DNA from: Bacteroidota bacterium
GTDB lineage: Bacteria > Bacteroidota > Bacteroidia > SXHM01
DNA: 35,191 nucleotides
Assembly: GCA_947479755.1 (NCBI GenBank)
Contig: CANKAM010000009.1
Span: 68,464-103,654, forward strand
Direction: 5' to 3'
Within the stretch, counting starts at the first letter, position 1; every line of letters starts with the position of its first letter. Shown piece by piece: positions 20,145 to 25,844 of the stretch. The notes under the pieces are model-generated. The model had not been told where the DNA came from. It saw only the letters and a program-made list of their open reading frames with translations, and did no database searches. A program made the translations under genes and the position numbers.

Positions 20145-21467
20145 TCAGACAGGAACTTCTTCGCGACTCAGCGCAACTTTATAGGCTTGCAGTACACGGT
20201 TGCGGGCAAACACATGTTCAACAATCGGCTGCGAATATTTTGAAGTGCCAAATTCAGGCACCCACTTTTTTATATAAACAAAGTCAGGATCAAATTTCTT
20301 CTGTTGTTCGGTTGGATTAAAAACACGGAAATAGGGAGCAGCATCACAACCGCAACCTGCAGCCCACTGCCAGTTTCCGTTGTTGGATGCTAACTCAAAG
20401 TCTAATAATTTTTCTGCAAAATAAGCTTCTCCCCATCGCCAGTCTATTAGCAAATGTTTGGTTAAAAAACTTGCCACAACCATACGCACACGATTGTGCA
20501 TTAAACCTGTGGCATTAAGTTCACGCATGCCTGCATCAACCATCGGGTAACCGGTTTTGCCTTCACACCATGCCTGAAAATGTTGTTCGTTATTGGTCCA
20601 TTCTATTCCATCGTAATCTTTTTTGAACGCATTATTTACAAGCCGAGGAAAGTGCCACAAAATCATTTGGAAAAATTCGCGCCAGATCAATTCATTCAAA
20701 AATTGTTCGTTGTTATTTTTCGCCAGAGCAACCATCTCGCGAACACTTACCGTCCCGAAACGAAGATGAACACTGATGTTTGATGTTCCGGCAACAGAGG
20801 GCGTGTTTCGTGTATCATGATAATTTTTCAGCAACCCTTCATTCAATCTTGCAGGCGGAACTTCAATTCCTGATTGCTCAAAGGTGAGTTCTTCCAACGA
20901 AGGTTTATGAAAAGGTGGAATTTTCACCAAATTATTTAGCAGCTTTTCAGAAGGGTAATCTCCTGCGGATAAATTTGCATACGCTGCTTTCCAACGAACC
21001 GAATAAGGTGTAAAAACAGTGTAGGGCTTTCCATCAGGCTTCATTACCTCATCTTTTTCAAAAATCACATGGTCCTTAAATGTGTGGAAAGCAACACCAT
21101 TTTCTGAAAGCAACTGTGAGATTTTTGCGTCTCTTTCCTTAGCGTATGGTTCGTAATCGCGATTAGTATAAACAGCAGATATCTTGTATTTATCAATCAG
21201 CCGTTTAAAAGCCATTTCGGTGCTTCCATAAATTATTTTCAGTGAGCTTCCTTGCTTTTCAAATTCGTCTTTGAGCTTTGAAAGTTGAGCATGAATAAAC
21301 TCAACGCGTGCATCTTTTTTATTCTCGAGTTGCGCAAGTATCTCGGTATCAAAAATAAAAATTGGCAAAACATTCCCTCCGTTTTTCAGAGCATGAAAAA
21401 ATCCGCAATTGTCGTGCAACCGCAGGTCTCTTCTGAACCAGAAAATGTTAACCGTAGTATTAGGCAT
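20145..21467 (-). CDS. phr: deoxyribodipyrimidine photolyase (cryptochrome/photolyase family)
   Basis: The protein has 440 residues, typical for a class I CPD photolyase. The N-terminal antenna domain begins VNIFWFRRDLRLHDN. The FAD-binding C-terminal part has FLNELIWREFFQMILWHFPR, GYPMVDAGMRELNATGLMHNRVRM and WRWGEAYFAEKLLDFELASN, followed by NGNWQWAAGCGCDAAPYFRV and FNPTEQQKKFDPD. The enzyme repairs UV-induced cyclobutane dimers using light. The ATG shares its A with the TAA of the upstream sigma-factor gene (TAATG), so the two are translationally coupled. Together with the CarH-like regulator further upstream this suggests light-controlled expression. It could instead be a DASH-type cryptochrome, but the FAD-domain wording is closer to CPD photolyases. 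Confidence 0.95.
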   Translation of the reverse strand: MPNTTVNIFWFRRDLRLHDNCGFFHALKNGGNVLPIFIFDTEILAQLENKKDARVEFIHAQLSKLKDEFEKQGSSLKIIYGSTEMAFKRLIDKYKISAVYTNRDYEPYAKERDAKISQLLSENGVAFHTFKDHVIFEKDEVMKPDGKPYTVFTPYSVRWKAAYANLSAGDYPSEKLLNNLVKIPPFHKPSLEELTFEQSGIEVPPARLNEGLLKNYHDTRNTPSVAGTSNISVHLRFGTVSVREMVALAKNNNEQFLNELIWREFFQMILWHFPRLVNNAFKKDYDGIEWTNNEQHFQAWCEGKTGYPMVDAGMRELNATGLMHNRVRMVVASFLTKHLLIDWRWGEAYFAEKLLDFELASNNGNWQWAAGCGCDAAPYFRVFNPTEQQKKFDPDFVYIKKWVPEFGTSKYSQPIVEHVFARNRVLQAYKVALSREEVPV

Positions 21468-21976
21468 TAGTTATTCTTGTAGTCCTTAAAATATTCCATC
21501 AGAATTTTGCGAGCTATGAAAATGCGGCTTTTCACAGTTCCCATTGGGATACCAAGTTTTTCGGCAATCTCTTCGTATTTATAACCATCAACGTGCATCA
21601 TAAATGGAATGCGATATTGCTCTTCCAGTTTATTAATACCTGCATGAATTTCTTTTTCGGCTAAACGTGATGTTGGCGAAGTAAAACCAGAATCCTGAGG
21701 CATGTTTAAATAAAACAAGTCTTTGGTATTGTCGAATAATTCGCCAGAACGTTGTTGTCTGCGATAGTTATTAATGAAGGTGTTCTTCATTATCGTATGC
21801 ATCCATGCCGAAAGGTTGGTGCTGTCGGTAAATTTTTCGCGGTAGGTAAGTGCTTTTACAATTGTATCTTGTAAAAGATCGTTCGCATCTTCCATGTCTG
21901 CGGTGAGTTTCAGCGCAAAATATTTTAGCTTGTTACTAAGGAATGATACCTGGGTGTTAAATTCGATTGCTGTCAT
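21467..21976 (-). CDS. ECF-type RNA polymerase sigma factor
   Basis: This 169-residue sigma-70 family protein has region 2 with LKYFALKLTADMEDANDLLQDTIVKALTYREKF and LSAWMHTIMKNTFINNYRRQ. Region 4 contains LEEQYRIPFMMHVDGYKYEE and IAEKLGIPMGTVKSRIFIAR, a helix-turn-helix for -35 recognition. I start it at the ATG of MTAIEFNTQV (21974-21976). The frame stays open to a TTG at 22000, but that codon lies inside an exact -7 promoter element. No anti-sigma gene is adjacent; the next gene, overlapping by one base, is the photolyase. Closely similar sigma factors occur near carotenoid genes in Bacteroidota, so a role in light or oxidative stress response is a reasonable inference. Confidence 0.93.
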   Translation of the reverse strand: MTAIEFNTQVSFLSNKLKYFALKLTADMEDANDLLQDTIVKALTYREKFTDSTNLSAWMHTIMKNTFINNYRRQQRSGELFDNTKDLFYLNMPQDSGFTSPTSRLAEKEIHAGINKLEEQYRIPFMMHVDGYKYEEIAEKLGIPMGTVKSRIFIARKILMEYFKDYKNN

Positions 21977-21997
21977 GGTTTGTTTGTTTTTATGGCA

Positions 21998-22005
21998 CAA
22001 ACGTA
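21998..22005 (-). promoter_or_regulatory. Bacteroidota -7 element of the sigma/photolyase operon
   Basis: On the minus strand TACGTTTG exactly fits TAnnTTTG and lies 21 bases before the ATG at 21976. A TTG occurs about 10 bases further upstream, closer than the standard -33 position, so the promoter may be atypical and activator-dependent. It overlaps the alternative TTG start at 22000, which argues for the downstream ATG. Confidence 0.5.
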
Positions 22006-22137
22006 ATGCATGTTACAACACTATGTTTAATATTTTCGACAATTTGTTAAACAAAATAGTAAAAAGAGCAAATTTATATTGAAATGTTAAATAATTTTAA
22101 CACTTAAAATCCGATGAAAGGTAAAATGTGGGTGTTT

Positions 22138-23022
22138 CTAGTTCTTTATTCCTTGTAGCAAAGAATAAATGTCTGCTACACTGCTAATGCAATGTACATT
22201 TTTGAGAGCCACAAAATCAACATCGCAGGTTTGCATACCAGCAATATATACAGGGAGGACTTTACAGGTTTGGCACAAATCCTTTAAATAATCATGAATT
22301 CCGCCTTCAATAGGTGATGTTATATAGGTAAGAAGATAGTCAGGCTTCCTGGTATCCAGAGCATCCGTAAGATATTTATTTGGCATAGATTGTCCCAGAT
22401 AAATAACCTTATGGCCATTCTTTCTTAATATGTACTTAGTAAAGAGTAATCCAATTTCATGCATTTCGCCATCAGGCAAAAAAAGAAGAAAAGATTTAGC
22501 GCCTTTAGTTTCATCTTTTGGCAACCTGTCAATTGCAACTATAATCTTACGCCTGATAAGGTTAGAAATAAAGTGCTCTTGTGCAGGTGTTACATTTCCG
22601 GTTTGCCAAAGCAGTCCTACTTTGTCAAAGAATGGATAAACCACTTGAAGCATCGCATCTTCAAAACCATCTTTTAAAATCTGGTTGTCAAGGTGCTGTT
22701 CAAATTTTTCCTCACTCATTTCAATCATTGCAACAACCAGCTGCTCAATCTGAGCATCGTAGCTTTTGTCTCCGGAAGCCACTTTTTCAACTTCTGTGCA
22801 GATATCACTTTCACTAAGGCCTGCAATTTTAGAAATCTTGTAACCGTGATTGTTTAACAACGAAATATTGAGCAATTTTTTCAGTTGCTCATCATTGTAA
22901 TATCTGAAATTGGTTTCGGTGCGGCTGGGCTCAATGATTTTGAAACGCTTTTCCCAGATACGAATTGTATGCGCCTTTACTCCTGAGAGTTTTTCAAGAT
23001 CGTTAATTGAATAATTTCCCAT
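22138..23022 (-). CDS. MerR-family regulator with cobalamin-binding domain, CarH/LitR-like
   Basis: The protein has 294 residues. The N-terminal MerR helix-turn-helix reads YSINDLEKLSGVKAHTIRIW then EKRFKIIEPSRTETNFRYY. The middle is a helical bundle with Trp139, Glu149 and His150 in the arrangement W-x9-EH (LLWQTGNVTPAQEH), matching Trp131, Glu141 and His142 of Thermus CarH. The C-terminal B12-binding fold has E-x-H-x-x-G at Glu186-His188-Gly191 (GEMHEIG), the site of the axial histidine. CarH proteins bind adenosylcobalamin in the dark, repress light-induced genes and release DNA after photolysis. The downstream sigma/photolyase operon on the same strand is the natural target. The C-terminal part reads through GQSMPNKYL to DIYSLLQGIKN. 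Cobalamin binding and light sensing are inferred. Confidence 0.88.
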   Translation of the reverse strand: MGNYSINDLEKLSGVKAHTIRIWEKRFKIIEPSRTETNFRYYNDEQLKKLLNISLLNNHGYKISKIAGLSESDICTEVEKVASGDKSYDAQIEQLVVAMIEMSEEKFEQHLDNQILKDGFEDAMLQVVYPFFDKVGLLWQTGNVTPAQEHFISNLIRRKIIVAIDRLPKDETKGAKSFLLFLPDGEMHEIGLLFTKYILRKNGHKVIYLGQSMPNKYLTDALDTRKPDYLLTYITSPIEGGIHDYLKDLCQTCKVLPVYIAGMQTCDVDFVALKNVHCISSVADIYSLLQGIKN

Positions 23023-23121: not shown

Positions 23122-23208
23122 TAAAAAGGATAAAATCACTTTGTGTTCTTTGCATAAAACCTTGTACACTTTGCGGTTAAATTGCCAGATTTGCAAAAAC
23201 TTACTTCT

Positions 23209-23655
23209 ATGATTCGTTTCTCCATTCTGTTTAGTGTATTTCTGCTTAGCTCCTGCATTTCGTACAAACCTGTTATGATTACATCAATAAAAGATGTCAA
23301 AACTGCCAATATTTCGGGTGAAAAAGTAGAACTTGCTTTTAATCTTGAAATAGATAATCCCAACGGGTTTAAAATTGTATTGAAGCAATACGATATGGAT
23401 GTGATGCTTAATGAGAAAGGGTTGGGCAAGGCCAGTTCAAGCGAAAAGATTGTAATAAAACGTAAATCAAAAGAAACACACCCGTTTAAGCTGAGTGCCA
23501 GTTACAAAGACTTTATGAGTGCAACGGTAACGGGTTTAGGTGCTCTTTTAAATAAAGAACCTGTTACCTTTAAAGTAAAAGGCGCTATCAGTGGCCGGAT
23601 ATGGTGGTTTAAAAAAAATATTCCGATAGAAACCACTCAGAAAATCAAGTTGTAG
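23209..23655 (+). CDS. LEA14-like (LEA type 2) lipoprotein
   Basis: From the ATG at 23209 the product has 148 residues: MIRFSILFSVFLLSSC is a lipoprotein signal peptide with lipobox LSSC. The mature part contains VELAFNLEIDNPNGFKIVLK and a beta-rich sequence (WHy/LEA14 domain), where the DNPN motif opens the immunoglobulin-like fold. The middle FKLSASYKDFMS and the end FKVKGAISGRIWWFKKNIPI are consistent with this fold. I prefer this start to the TTG 27 bases upstream, which would put nine residues before the signal peptide. It probably sits in the periplasmic leaflet of a membrane. Function of bacterial members is poorly defined, often linked to stress. It diverges from the CarH-like gene. 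Confidence 0.85.
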   Translation: MIRFSILFSVFLLSSCISYKPVMITSIKDVKTANISGEKVELAFNLEIDNPNGFKIVLKQYDMDVMLNEKGLGKASSSEKIVIKRKSKETHPFKLSASYKDFMSATVTGLGALLNKEPVTFKVKGAISGRIWWFKKNIPIETTQKIKL

Positions 23656-23709: not shown

Positions 23710-23740
23710 TTGACTTTGGTCGAAGGATAGCTTATATTTG
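23710..23740 (+). promoter_or_regulatory. well-formed Bacteroidota promoter of the MurD-like gene
   Basis: TTG (23710-23712) and TATATTTG (23733-23740) match the -33 and -7 consensus with a 20-base spacer; the -7 element is an exact TAnnTTTG. The start codon lies at 23819, giving a leader of about 70 bases that includes the stem-loop at 23757-23780. The spacer contains the 12-mer GTCGAAGGATAG, the inverse of a segment of the dispersed repeat at 11585-11596. Confidence 0.6.
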
Positions 23741-23756
23741 TATATTAATTAAAGGT

Positions 23757-23780
23757 ATTCGTCTACAAAAAAAGACGAAT
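23757..23780 (+). promoter_or_regulatory. stem-loop in the leader of the MurD-like gene
   Basis: ATTCGTCT (23757-23764) and AGACGAAT (23773-23780) form an 8-bp perfect stem with an A-rich 8-base loop. It is not followed by a T tract, so it is not a terminator. Its place between the promoter and the start codon suggests mRNA stability or translational control, but nothing more specific can be said. Confidence 0.4.
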
Positions 23781-23818: not shown

Positions 23819-24358
23819 ATGGACGAATCATTTGATCTTACTTCGGCACGTGGCATGAAAGTTCCTTTCATTGAAGATGACAAGGATTTTATGGAAATAC
23901 GTAAAGATATTATCCGCGAAAGCCTTTCGGATATTTATGACAAAACCTTCAATTTTGAAACCATTGCCACTATAAAAGGTGTGGACTATGTAAACGATGC
24001 ACATGCAATGACTGTTGACAGCACAGGGGCTTCTCTTTTACGTTGTTACAAGCCTGTAACCTGGATTGTTGCCGAGCCCCATAACTACTCAGAACTTGCC
24101 GGAATCTCGGAGATAGTGGAAGAAAAAGTGACTGCTATTATTTGTCTTGGCGAGAATGTGAACGAAATATTTAACGCCTTTGGAACTGCAAAAGCTCAGT
24201 TGTATTTGAATGCCGAAAACATGGAAGAAGCATTAAAAATTGCTTCGATGATTACAAGACCGGGCGAACTGGTGCTGTTTTCACCGGCTTCGGATAATGT
24301 GGAAAAAAATGCAGGGAAAGAGTTTAACAGGGCGGTGAGAGCTTTAAAGAATAAATAG
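23819..24358 (+). CDS. stand-alone MurD C-terminal-domain homologue
   Basis: This 179-residue protein has an N-terminal segment (1-45, MDESFDLTSARGMKVPFIED) without a recognisable fold. From about residue 46 it reads like domain 3 of MurD. It runs ATIKGVDYVNDAHAMTVDST (MurD: GVxFxNDSKATNxxST), then KPVTWIVAEPHNYS (MurD: PVVWIAGGxDKGxDY). Next come VEEKVTAIICLGEN, MEEALKIASMITRPGELVLFSPAS and GKEFNRAVRAL. The central ATP-binding and N-terminal UDP-binding domains are absent. Ligand residues are changed: the Lys of DSKATN is His here and the SPACASFD loop is SPASDNVE. It is therefore unlikely to be an active UDP-MurNAc-Ala:D-Glu ligase and could be a regulator or interaction partner of the Mur pathway. 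It has its own good promoter, so it does not look like mere debris. Confidence 0.78.
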   Translation: MDESFDLTSARGMKVPFIEDDKDFMEIRKDIIRESLSDIYDKTFNFETIATIKGVDYVNDAHAMTVDSTGASLLRCYKPVTWIVAEPHNYSELAGISEIVEEKVTAIICLGENVNEIFNAFGTAKAQLYLNAENMEEALKIASMITRPGELVLFSPASDNVEKNAGKEFNRAVRALKNK

Positions 24359-24404: not shown

Positions 24405-25844
24405 CTAATACTTTACACACACATTTTTAGGCTCTGTAAAAAAGCGCAGGGCTTCCCAGCCGCCTTCGCGTCCAACGCCTGAACTTTTCATGCCGCCAAA
24501 AGGAGTGCGCAAATCGCGGACAAGCCAGCAGTTAATCCAGATGATGCCGCTTTTGAGTTGGGCGGCAACGCGGTGGGCTTTGCTTACATTTTCGGTCCAG
24601 ATGGTTCCAGCTAAACCAAACTCGATGGCATTGGCAAGTTGCAGGGCTTCTTCCTCGGTTTCAAAACTCTGAAGGGTAACAACAGGACCAAAAATTTCTT
24701 CCATGTTGGTGCGGCAGTTTTGGGGCAAGCCTTCAATAACTGTTGGTTCTATATAATAGCCGTCTTCAAAGCCTTCTACTATTTTGCGTTTACCTCCGCA
24801 TAGAATTTTACCGCCTTCCTGTTGTGCAAGTTCTATGTAAGACAGCACTTTTTGCATGTGTTGTTCTGAGACGATTGCCCCTAATTTTACGCTGTCATCT
24901 GTGGGGTTGCCCACTTTCATTTTTGCGGTGCGCTTTACCAATTCATCGCGGAATTTTTCATAGAGCGGTTTTTCAATCAGTATGCGTGAACCGCAGAGGC
25001 ATATCTCGCCTTGGTTGGAGAAGGATGAATTCAGGGTGGTCTTTATAGCTTCCTCAAAATCGCAATCGGCAAAAATGATGTTGGGGTTTTTACCGCCCAA
25101 TTCAAGCGAAAGTTTTTTGAACATCGGGGCAGCCGTGCGCGCTATTTCCGCGCCTGTTTTGGTGCCGCCTGTAAAAGAGATTAAGGGAATATCGGGGTGC
25201 GAGGTAATGGCTGCGCCTACTTTGTGTCCGTAGCCATGTACGATGTTGAGCACTCCGGGAGGCAGACCTGCTTTGATGCAGAGTTCGCTGAGCAGATAAG
25301 CCGTCATGGGTGTTATTTCGGATGGCTTGGATACTACGGTGTTTCCGGCTGCAAGGGCGGGCGCAATTTTCCAGCTAAACAAATAGAGCGGCAAATTCCA
25401 GGGCGAGATACAGCCTGCCACGCCCACGGGTTGGCGTAATGTATAATTAATAAAACCTTCTTCCATGCGGTGGCTTTCGCTGGCATGGTGCAGAATGGCG
25501 GTGGCATAAAAATGAAAATTGCTGGCGGCACGGGGTATATCCACGCGCTTGGCAAGCCACACGGGTTTGCCGTTGTCTGTGGATTCGGCAATAGCAAGGT
25601 TATCAAGGTTTTCGGTTATCAGTTGAGCGATTTTTAATAAAATCTCACTTCGTTTAGCTGCGGGGGTGGCGCTCCATGCAGGGAAGGCGGCAGTGGCAGC
25701 GGCAGTGGCAATATTCACATCAGCGGCATCTGAATCGGGAATGAGTGAATATACTTTTCCCGTTGAGGGGTTGTAGTTATCAATGTAGCTGTTGCTTTGG
25801 GGGGCGCTTAAGTTGCCATTGATATAATTGCTTAGCTTTTGCAA
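24405..25844 (-). CDS. aldehyde dehydrogenase, ALDH8/2-aminomuconic semialdehyde dehydrogenase-like
   Basis: The protein has 479 residues with the NAD(P)-dependent aldehyde dehydrogenase landmarks: Asn150 in ISPWNLPL, SFTGGTKTGAEI, the base Glu248 in SLELGGKNP, and catalytic Cys282 in SNQGEICLCGSR. EEIFGPVV lies in the C-terminal half. The segment WINCWLVRDLRTPFGGMKSS then GVGREGG.EALRFFTEPKNV is typical of the ALDH8 clade and hydroxymuconic/aminomuconic semialdehyde dehydrogenases. That would place it in the kynurenine or meta-cleavage pathway. Other kynurenine genes are not in the window, so the pathway is inferred. An acyl-CoA dehydrogenase gene lies 7 bases upstream. The coding sequence looks more GC-rich than its neighbours. 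Confidence 0.9.
   Translation of the reverse strand: MQKLSNYINGNLSAPQSNSYIDNYNPSTGKVYSLIPDSDAADVNIATAAATAAFPAWSATPAAKRSEILLKIAQLITENLDNLAIAESTDNGKPVWLAKRVDIPRAASNFHFYATAILHHASESHRMEEGFINYTLRQPVGVAGCISPWNLPLYLFSWKIAPALAAGNTVVSKPSEITPMTAYLLSELCIKAGLPPGVLNIVHGYGHKVGAAITSHPDIPLISFTGGTKTGAEIARTAAPMFKKLSLELGGKNPNIIFADCDFEEAIKTTLNSSFSNQGEICLCGSRILIEKPLYEKFRDELVKRTAKMKVGNPTDDSVKLGAIVSEQHMQKVLSYIELAQQEGGKILCGGKRKIVEGFEDGYYIEPTVIEGLPQNCRTNMEEIFGPVVTLQSFETEEEALQLANAIEFGLAGTIWTENVSKAHRVAAQLKSGIIWINCWLVRDLRTPFGGMKSSGVGREGGWEALRFFTEPKNVCVKY

Follow-up and report, generated by a model that had tools for sequence, protein, structure and literature searches.

The 179-codon open reading frame (ORF) at 23819-24358 of the window, the window being the whole stretch of 35,191 nucleotides that was analysed, appears to encode a maintained, non-catalytic paralogue consisting of the third domain of MurD alone, a reading well supported by profile matches, orthologues and structure prediction. 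It stems from a freshwater Bacteroidia bacterium with two small MurD-domain-3-only proteins. As judged from sequence comparison, the solo MurD domains of Bacteroidia are an old paralogue family, usually encoded in the dcw operon with murD before and ftsW after the solo; the window ORF represents a diverged orphan branch of it. No prior description of such a family was found in the open-access literature. We give a probability of about 0.4 to the reading that the solos are non-catalytic partners or regulators acting in the Mur pathway by protein-protein contact, the window copy being a ligand-independent version. A first-pass annotation of the same DNA had recognised a Mur paralogue here and had overlooked that it is a member of a family found across the class and tied to murD and ftsW. 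The features of the locus are collected in Table 1.

Table 1. Features of the orphan solo locus (window coordinates).
Feature	Position	Strand	Evidence or remark
LEA_2-domain lipoprotein-like ORF, upstream neighbour	23182..23655	+	Pfam PF03168, E 3e-11; synteny in genus loci
Bacteroidota-type promoter, TTG-N20-TATATTTG	23710..23740	+	same spacing in 7/7 orthologues
Small 5'-UTR hairpin, TTCGTCT/AGACGAA	23758..23779	+	94% of cells paired (7 sequences), one GC-to-AU double change
Solo MurD domain-3 ORF of 179 aa (orphan branch)	23819..24358	+	profile matches, AlphaFold2, orthologues
Residues 1-22, a unique N-terminus with predicted disorder	23819..23884	+	AlphaFold2 pLDDT <50, alignment
Helix plus linker (residues 23-45), homologous to the MurD central-domain end (EIRKDIIRESLSD)	23885..23953	+	alignment; low pLDDT
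MurD domain 3, residues 46-179; D-Glu contact residues and most ATP contact residues gone	23954..24355	+	TIGR01087, alignment, AlphaFold2, Foldseek
Aldehyde dehydrogenase gene, convergent	24405..25844	-	Pfam PF00171; also beside the f44 orphan

Domain content and predicted structure

Residues 32-158 of the window ORF match positions 294-419 of the 441 in the NCBIfam murD model TIGR01087 (E 1.3e-18), and the score of 67 against a full-length cut-off of 212 sets it apart from three-domain MurD. The UDP-binding and ATPase domains are absent, leaving a single domain 3 of the ligand-binding type, and no ligase reaction would be expected of that domain alone because the other two are missing. E. coli MurD in the PDB was matched at E 5e-4, aligned across residues 300-422. 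The match to Pfam PF02875 (Mur_ligase_C), a family otherwise made up of the end parts of complete enzymes, had an E of 8e-6 and at 27.1 bits narrowly missed the cut-off of 28.4; an orphan solo from family f44 reached 28.0 bits, just under it, and the two tandem solos tested passed with 44-45 bits. None of the curated NCBIfam and Pfam families accepts the window ORF, and the tested tandem solos pass the general Mur_ligase_C alone. An AlphaFold2 model built from 66 sequences collected in the analysis had pLDDT below 50 at residues 1-22 and 36-43; its block means were 72 over residues 41-50 and 79-98 from residue 51 to 179. In Foldseek all top matches of the model in the PDB (33/33) were MurD, with MurD domain 3 at E 5e-9. 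Model and structural matches thus place the fold in the Mur_ligase_C superfamily despite the Pfam score below cut-off. The alignment by eye in the first-pass annotation, to the C-terminal domain of MurD and to neither the UDP nor the ATP domain, agrees with TIGR01087, the PDB match and Foldseek, and two of the checks it proposed, HMMER against Mur_ligase_C and structure prediction, returned homology slightly under the cut-off and a confident domain 3 at residues 46-179.

The same annotation had described a separate N-terminus of about 45 residues. About 22 of these (residues 1-22) are indeed unique to the protein, and their MDxSFD start is kept across the genus in the alignment. Residues 24-45 (EIRKDIIRESLSDIY...) instead align with the end of the MurD central domain and its linker (RKDIIRESLSD), where the organism's own MurD has RKESIRESLSDFQNVEHR. 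This helix and linker are conserved in the orphans and in a subset of the tandem solos.

Ligand-cleft residues

Residue positions are given in E. coli MurD numbering. The window ORF carries the substitutions H301F, R302N, S318A, K319H, T321M, G344A, G345E, K348N and S415N, lacks positions 419 and 422 and has SPASDN for SPACAS, while E304, N316, D317, A320, S410, P411 and A412 are retained. R302, D317 and K319 have an ATP-side role in MurD. The D-Glu part of MurD ligands is hydrogen-bonded by Ser415, Lys348, Thr321 and the Phe422 amide (PMC3527612), and at K348, T321 and S415 the window ORF has N, M and N. By alignment, nearly the entire ligand cleft is lost. Binding of the MurD product, as proposed earlier, is therefore unsupported for the window ORF. 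The Lys-to-His exchange (K319H) and the altered SPACAS loop, the latter with loss of the following residues, were correctly read, whereas the His is no family signature since it varies to Leu and Thr among the orthologues, being H in 6/7 of the genus, L in one (G005) and T in the probable f44 orthologue.

The tandem solos have kept more of the cleft. H301, E304 and N316 are invariant in them, S318 and S410-P411 are almost invariant, and most families retain D317, S410-A412, S415 and Y422. K348 is present in 57/58 MurD versus 11/53 tandem solos, those of f11 among the latter. Full-length MurD has R302, D317, K319, T321 and S415 in 58/58 sequences.

Same genome and genus

The genome is 3.9 Mb and 99.6% complete. 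An intact murD lies on another contig (C13), downstream of an mraY-like ORF identified by its similarity to a Pfam-checked copy in G002, and the ORF directly after it encodes another solo MurD domain 3, which has 37% identity to the window ORF. Mur_ligase_C occurs in nine places, namely seven in long frames and the two solos. The window ORF is the orphan, seated away from murD and ftsW, and it is the C13 paralogue that follows murD.

Orthologues of the window ORF were found in 7/7 genomes of the genus, the one genus representing its order in the genome collection, with 69-96% identity and neither stops nor frameshifts. Within the genus, the dN/dS values (Nei-Gojobori) were about 0.09-0.21 (orphan), 0.03-0.06 (tandem solo) and 0.05-0.09 (murD); they should be taken as clearly below 1, since many dS values are near saturation. 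On these comparisons the orphan ORF is under purifying selection. The earlier proposal of a maintained, non-catalytic Mur paralogue is thereby borne out by the orthologues, the low dN/dS, the separate full-length murD and a second solo as the closest paralogue. Neither of the outcomes named as refuting it, a lack of orthologues with high dN/dS or a recent fragment of a neighbouring murD, occurred; the latter is ruled out by the separate murD, the genus orthologues, the tree and dN/dS.

Promoter, 5'-UTR and neighbours

The motif TAnnTTTG is the Bacteroidota -7 element and has been used in published work. Upstream of the window ORF, TTG at 23710 is followed after 20 nt by TATATTTG at 23733-23740, and GACTTTnGTCGA overlaps the -33 element and the spacer. 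Promoter and GACTTTnGTCGA are kept in 7/7 orthologues save single bases, one of them having TATG for TATA, so that the consensus promoter ascribed to the ORF is both present and conserved in the genus. A regulon sharing the extended promoter pattern and spacer was looked for, and only one site was found in the whole genome. The hairpin of the 5'-UTR has modest support from covariation as a conserved RNA structure, and nothing convincing upstream of the ORF was found in Rfam. Attenuation at the start codon, by pairing of the hairpin 5' arm (23757-23763) with GACGAAT (23822-23828), was rejected, this pairing being possible in just 4/7 orthologues.

On the reverse strand at 20145-23022 of the window lie a photolyase, an ECF sigma factor and a MerR regulator with B12-binding domains, which adjoin the ORF genus-wide in an arrangement like that of a LitR/CarH light response.

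The solo family across Bacteroidia

The class was surveyed by searching 396 genomes with the window ORF; 35 genomes were re-examined and ORFs were extracted. In this survey second MurD-domain-3 hits are free-standing ORFs about 155-205 aa long; the ORFs predicted at L003, L075, L076 and L098 are overlong and overlap murD, as each was read from its earliest possible start. The sample is a draw from the class with many MAGs, in which very diverged solos may escape detection. A profile search of the 396 genomes gave at least two matches in about 80 (a hand count, with three weak or odd cases that may be split genes). Solos directly follow murD on the same strand in 17 families and nearly always directly precede ftsW. 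In every tandem-solo locus where ftsW was found, it is encoded downstream of the solo and on its strand, mostly after 0-45 nt, after about 150-250 nt in f11 and after larger gaps in a few. In f40 the solo precedes ftsW by 6 nt with murD on a different contig. In f10, f15, f50 and f58 murD is followed by ftsW after 3-23 nt without a solo. Most sampled families of Bacteroidia are without a detectable solo, and the role is therefore not universal. Outside the class 0 of about 111 Bacteroidota genomes had a solo; one of these (G445) gave two matches that look like a gene cut by contig ends.

Some loci depart from the common arrangement. Two different solo MurD domains stand consecutively between murD and ftsW in one genome of f72 (G287, L095:2564-3641), and f40 has another highly diverged orphan away from dcw genes (L086:2371-2988). 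In G334 a DUF5906/helicase gene has beside it a MurD domain 3 whose N-terminus is rich in Cys (CLHCG...CPQC; L097:2670-3278); it is possibly on a mobile element, and the true host of that contig is unsure. A phage origin or a phage-borne inhibitor was considered and dropped, since no solo turned up in two scans of viral contigs; the two matches there (L118, L119) were full-length MurD, probably host DNA, and those in phage and plasmid records were mostly murD where annotated.

Origin and constraint

In a tree of 121 domain-3 sequences a single branch (SH-aLRT 96) separated all MurD from all 63 solos, the window ORF grouping with the solos. In a rooted tree of fewer rows, which had additional MurDs and an outgroup taken from beyond the class and from which the longest branches were omitted, six orphans grouped with 24/28 tandem solos (94), and the four f11 solos fell inside MurD. 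The solos therefore had one or two origins, old either way. The f11 solo may be of separate origin and is perhaps what is left of an ancestral MurD after replacement of its full-length copy. The window ORF grouped with the f44 orphan (91; long branches) at 34-37% identity, and since the latter also has a convergent aldehyde dehydrogenase gene the two are probably orthologous.

Constraint differed between families. In f11 (loci L055-L061 and L066, e.g. the solo at L057:3051-3599) solos of different genomes share 91-97% identity and have a dN/dS of 0.01-0.03, where the MurDs beside them share only 66-75% identity, and by this comparison the solo is more constrained there than the adjacent MurD. 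Conservation of the solo was similar to or below that of MurD in f4, f8, f9 and f1. At one f11 locus solo and ftsW are separated by a small 92-aa ORF (L057:3601-3879) that has a hydrophobic stretch and matches nothing in Pfam.

Proposed role and alternatives

A protein-protein role in the Mur pathway is proposed because the solos are one domain lacking the catalytic set, are under selection and sit between murD and ftsW. A solo would dock on MurD or on a MurD partner (FtsW, MraY or MurG) via its MurD-like surface and the helix retained from the central-domain end, and would so set or place the synthesis of UDP-MurNAc-dipeptide; the window ORF would be a separately expressed version for which the ligand is no longer needed. 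With MurD the solo shares the fold and sequence of domain 3, homologous to positions 294-440, while the window ORF differs in having neither the N-terminal UDP nor the central ATPase domain and in the loss of K348, K319, T321, R302 and S415. MurT of the MurT/GatD complex is likewise a Mur-ligase relative that works within a complex, but it retains the ATPase domain and is catalytic, whereas the solo is one domain. Tuning of MurD by a partner protein is known from Acinetobacter baumannii, where MigC inhibits MurD (PMC12208494); such tuning is the role proposed for the solos, although MigC is a COG0523 GTPase and no Mur-ligase relative.

Against the partner model stand the position of the orphan outside the dcw operon, its LEA_2, aldehyde dehydrogenase and photolyase/MerR-B12 neighbours, which do not indicate peptidoglycan, and K348 of the f11 solo, which would fit ligand binding instead. 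The last point leads to a ligand sensor, in which the retained cleft of tandem solos would still bind a nucleotide, or a substrate or product of MurD, and the solos would report the state of the precursors to FtsW or MurD. The cleft residues kept by most tandem-solo families, and K348 in addition in f11, speak for it; K348 is gone from most families, the UDP and ATP sites belong largely to domains 1 and 2, which the solos lack, and the window ORF with nearly all its cleft residues lost does not fit, which leaves sensing unlikely. The retained cleft and the place directly after murD would also suit a catalytic domain acting in trans, which would form a hybrid active site and there replace or supplement MurD's own domain 3, yet MurD, with its own domain-3 residues intact in 58/58, has no need of one and the window ORF lacks the required residues, making this very improbable.

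For the orphan the link to the Mur pathway is weaker, given its own promoter and non-wall neighbours, and it could have left the pathway. A new function outside peptidoglycan, e.g. as a small binding domain under its own promoter, with only the tandem copy serving the Mur pathway, is also favoured by the long orphan branch and the lost ligand residues. It is doubtful, if somewhat less so than sensing, as the backbone signature residues and the RKDIIRES helix shared with tandem solos are still conserved and nothing positive points to any other pathway. That the solos are functionless, decaying fragments of a murD duplication might be read from their patchy distribution and from their being one third of an enzyme, but with dN/dS far below 1 across seven species, intact frames, a conserved promoter and solos in many families, hardly any weight is left for decay.

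Returning to the partner reading, it is tentatively suggested that many Bacteroidia carry an overlooked, operon-encoded protein without catalysis that is a subunit of the MurD step or regulates it, or does so for the connection between MurD and FtsW. It would derive from MurD domain 3 and be under stronger constraint than MurD in some families, and the window ORF would be a second version with its own regulation. The solos are a clear case of one domain of a multi-domain enzyme kept alone across many families of one class. MurD is essential, and MigC is the one protein regulator of it met in the literature examined. A solo between murD and ftsW would, if the partner reading is true, be a natural link of cytoplasmic precursor synthesis to septal wall synthesis, and the family is a directly testable candidate for that link.
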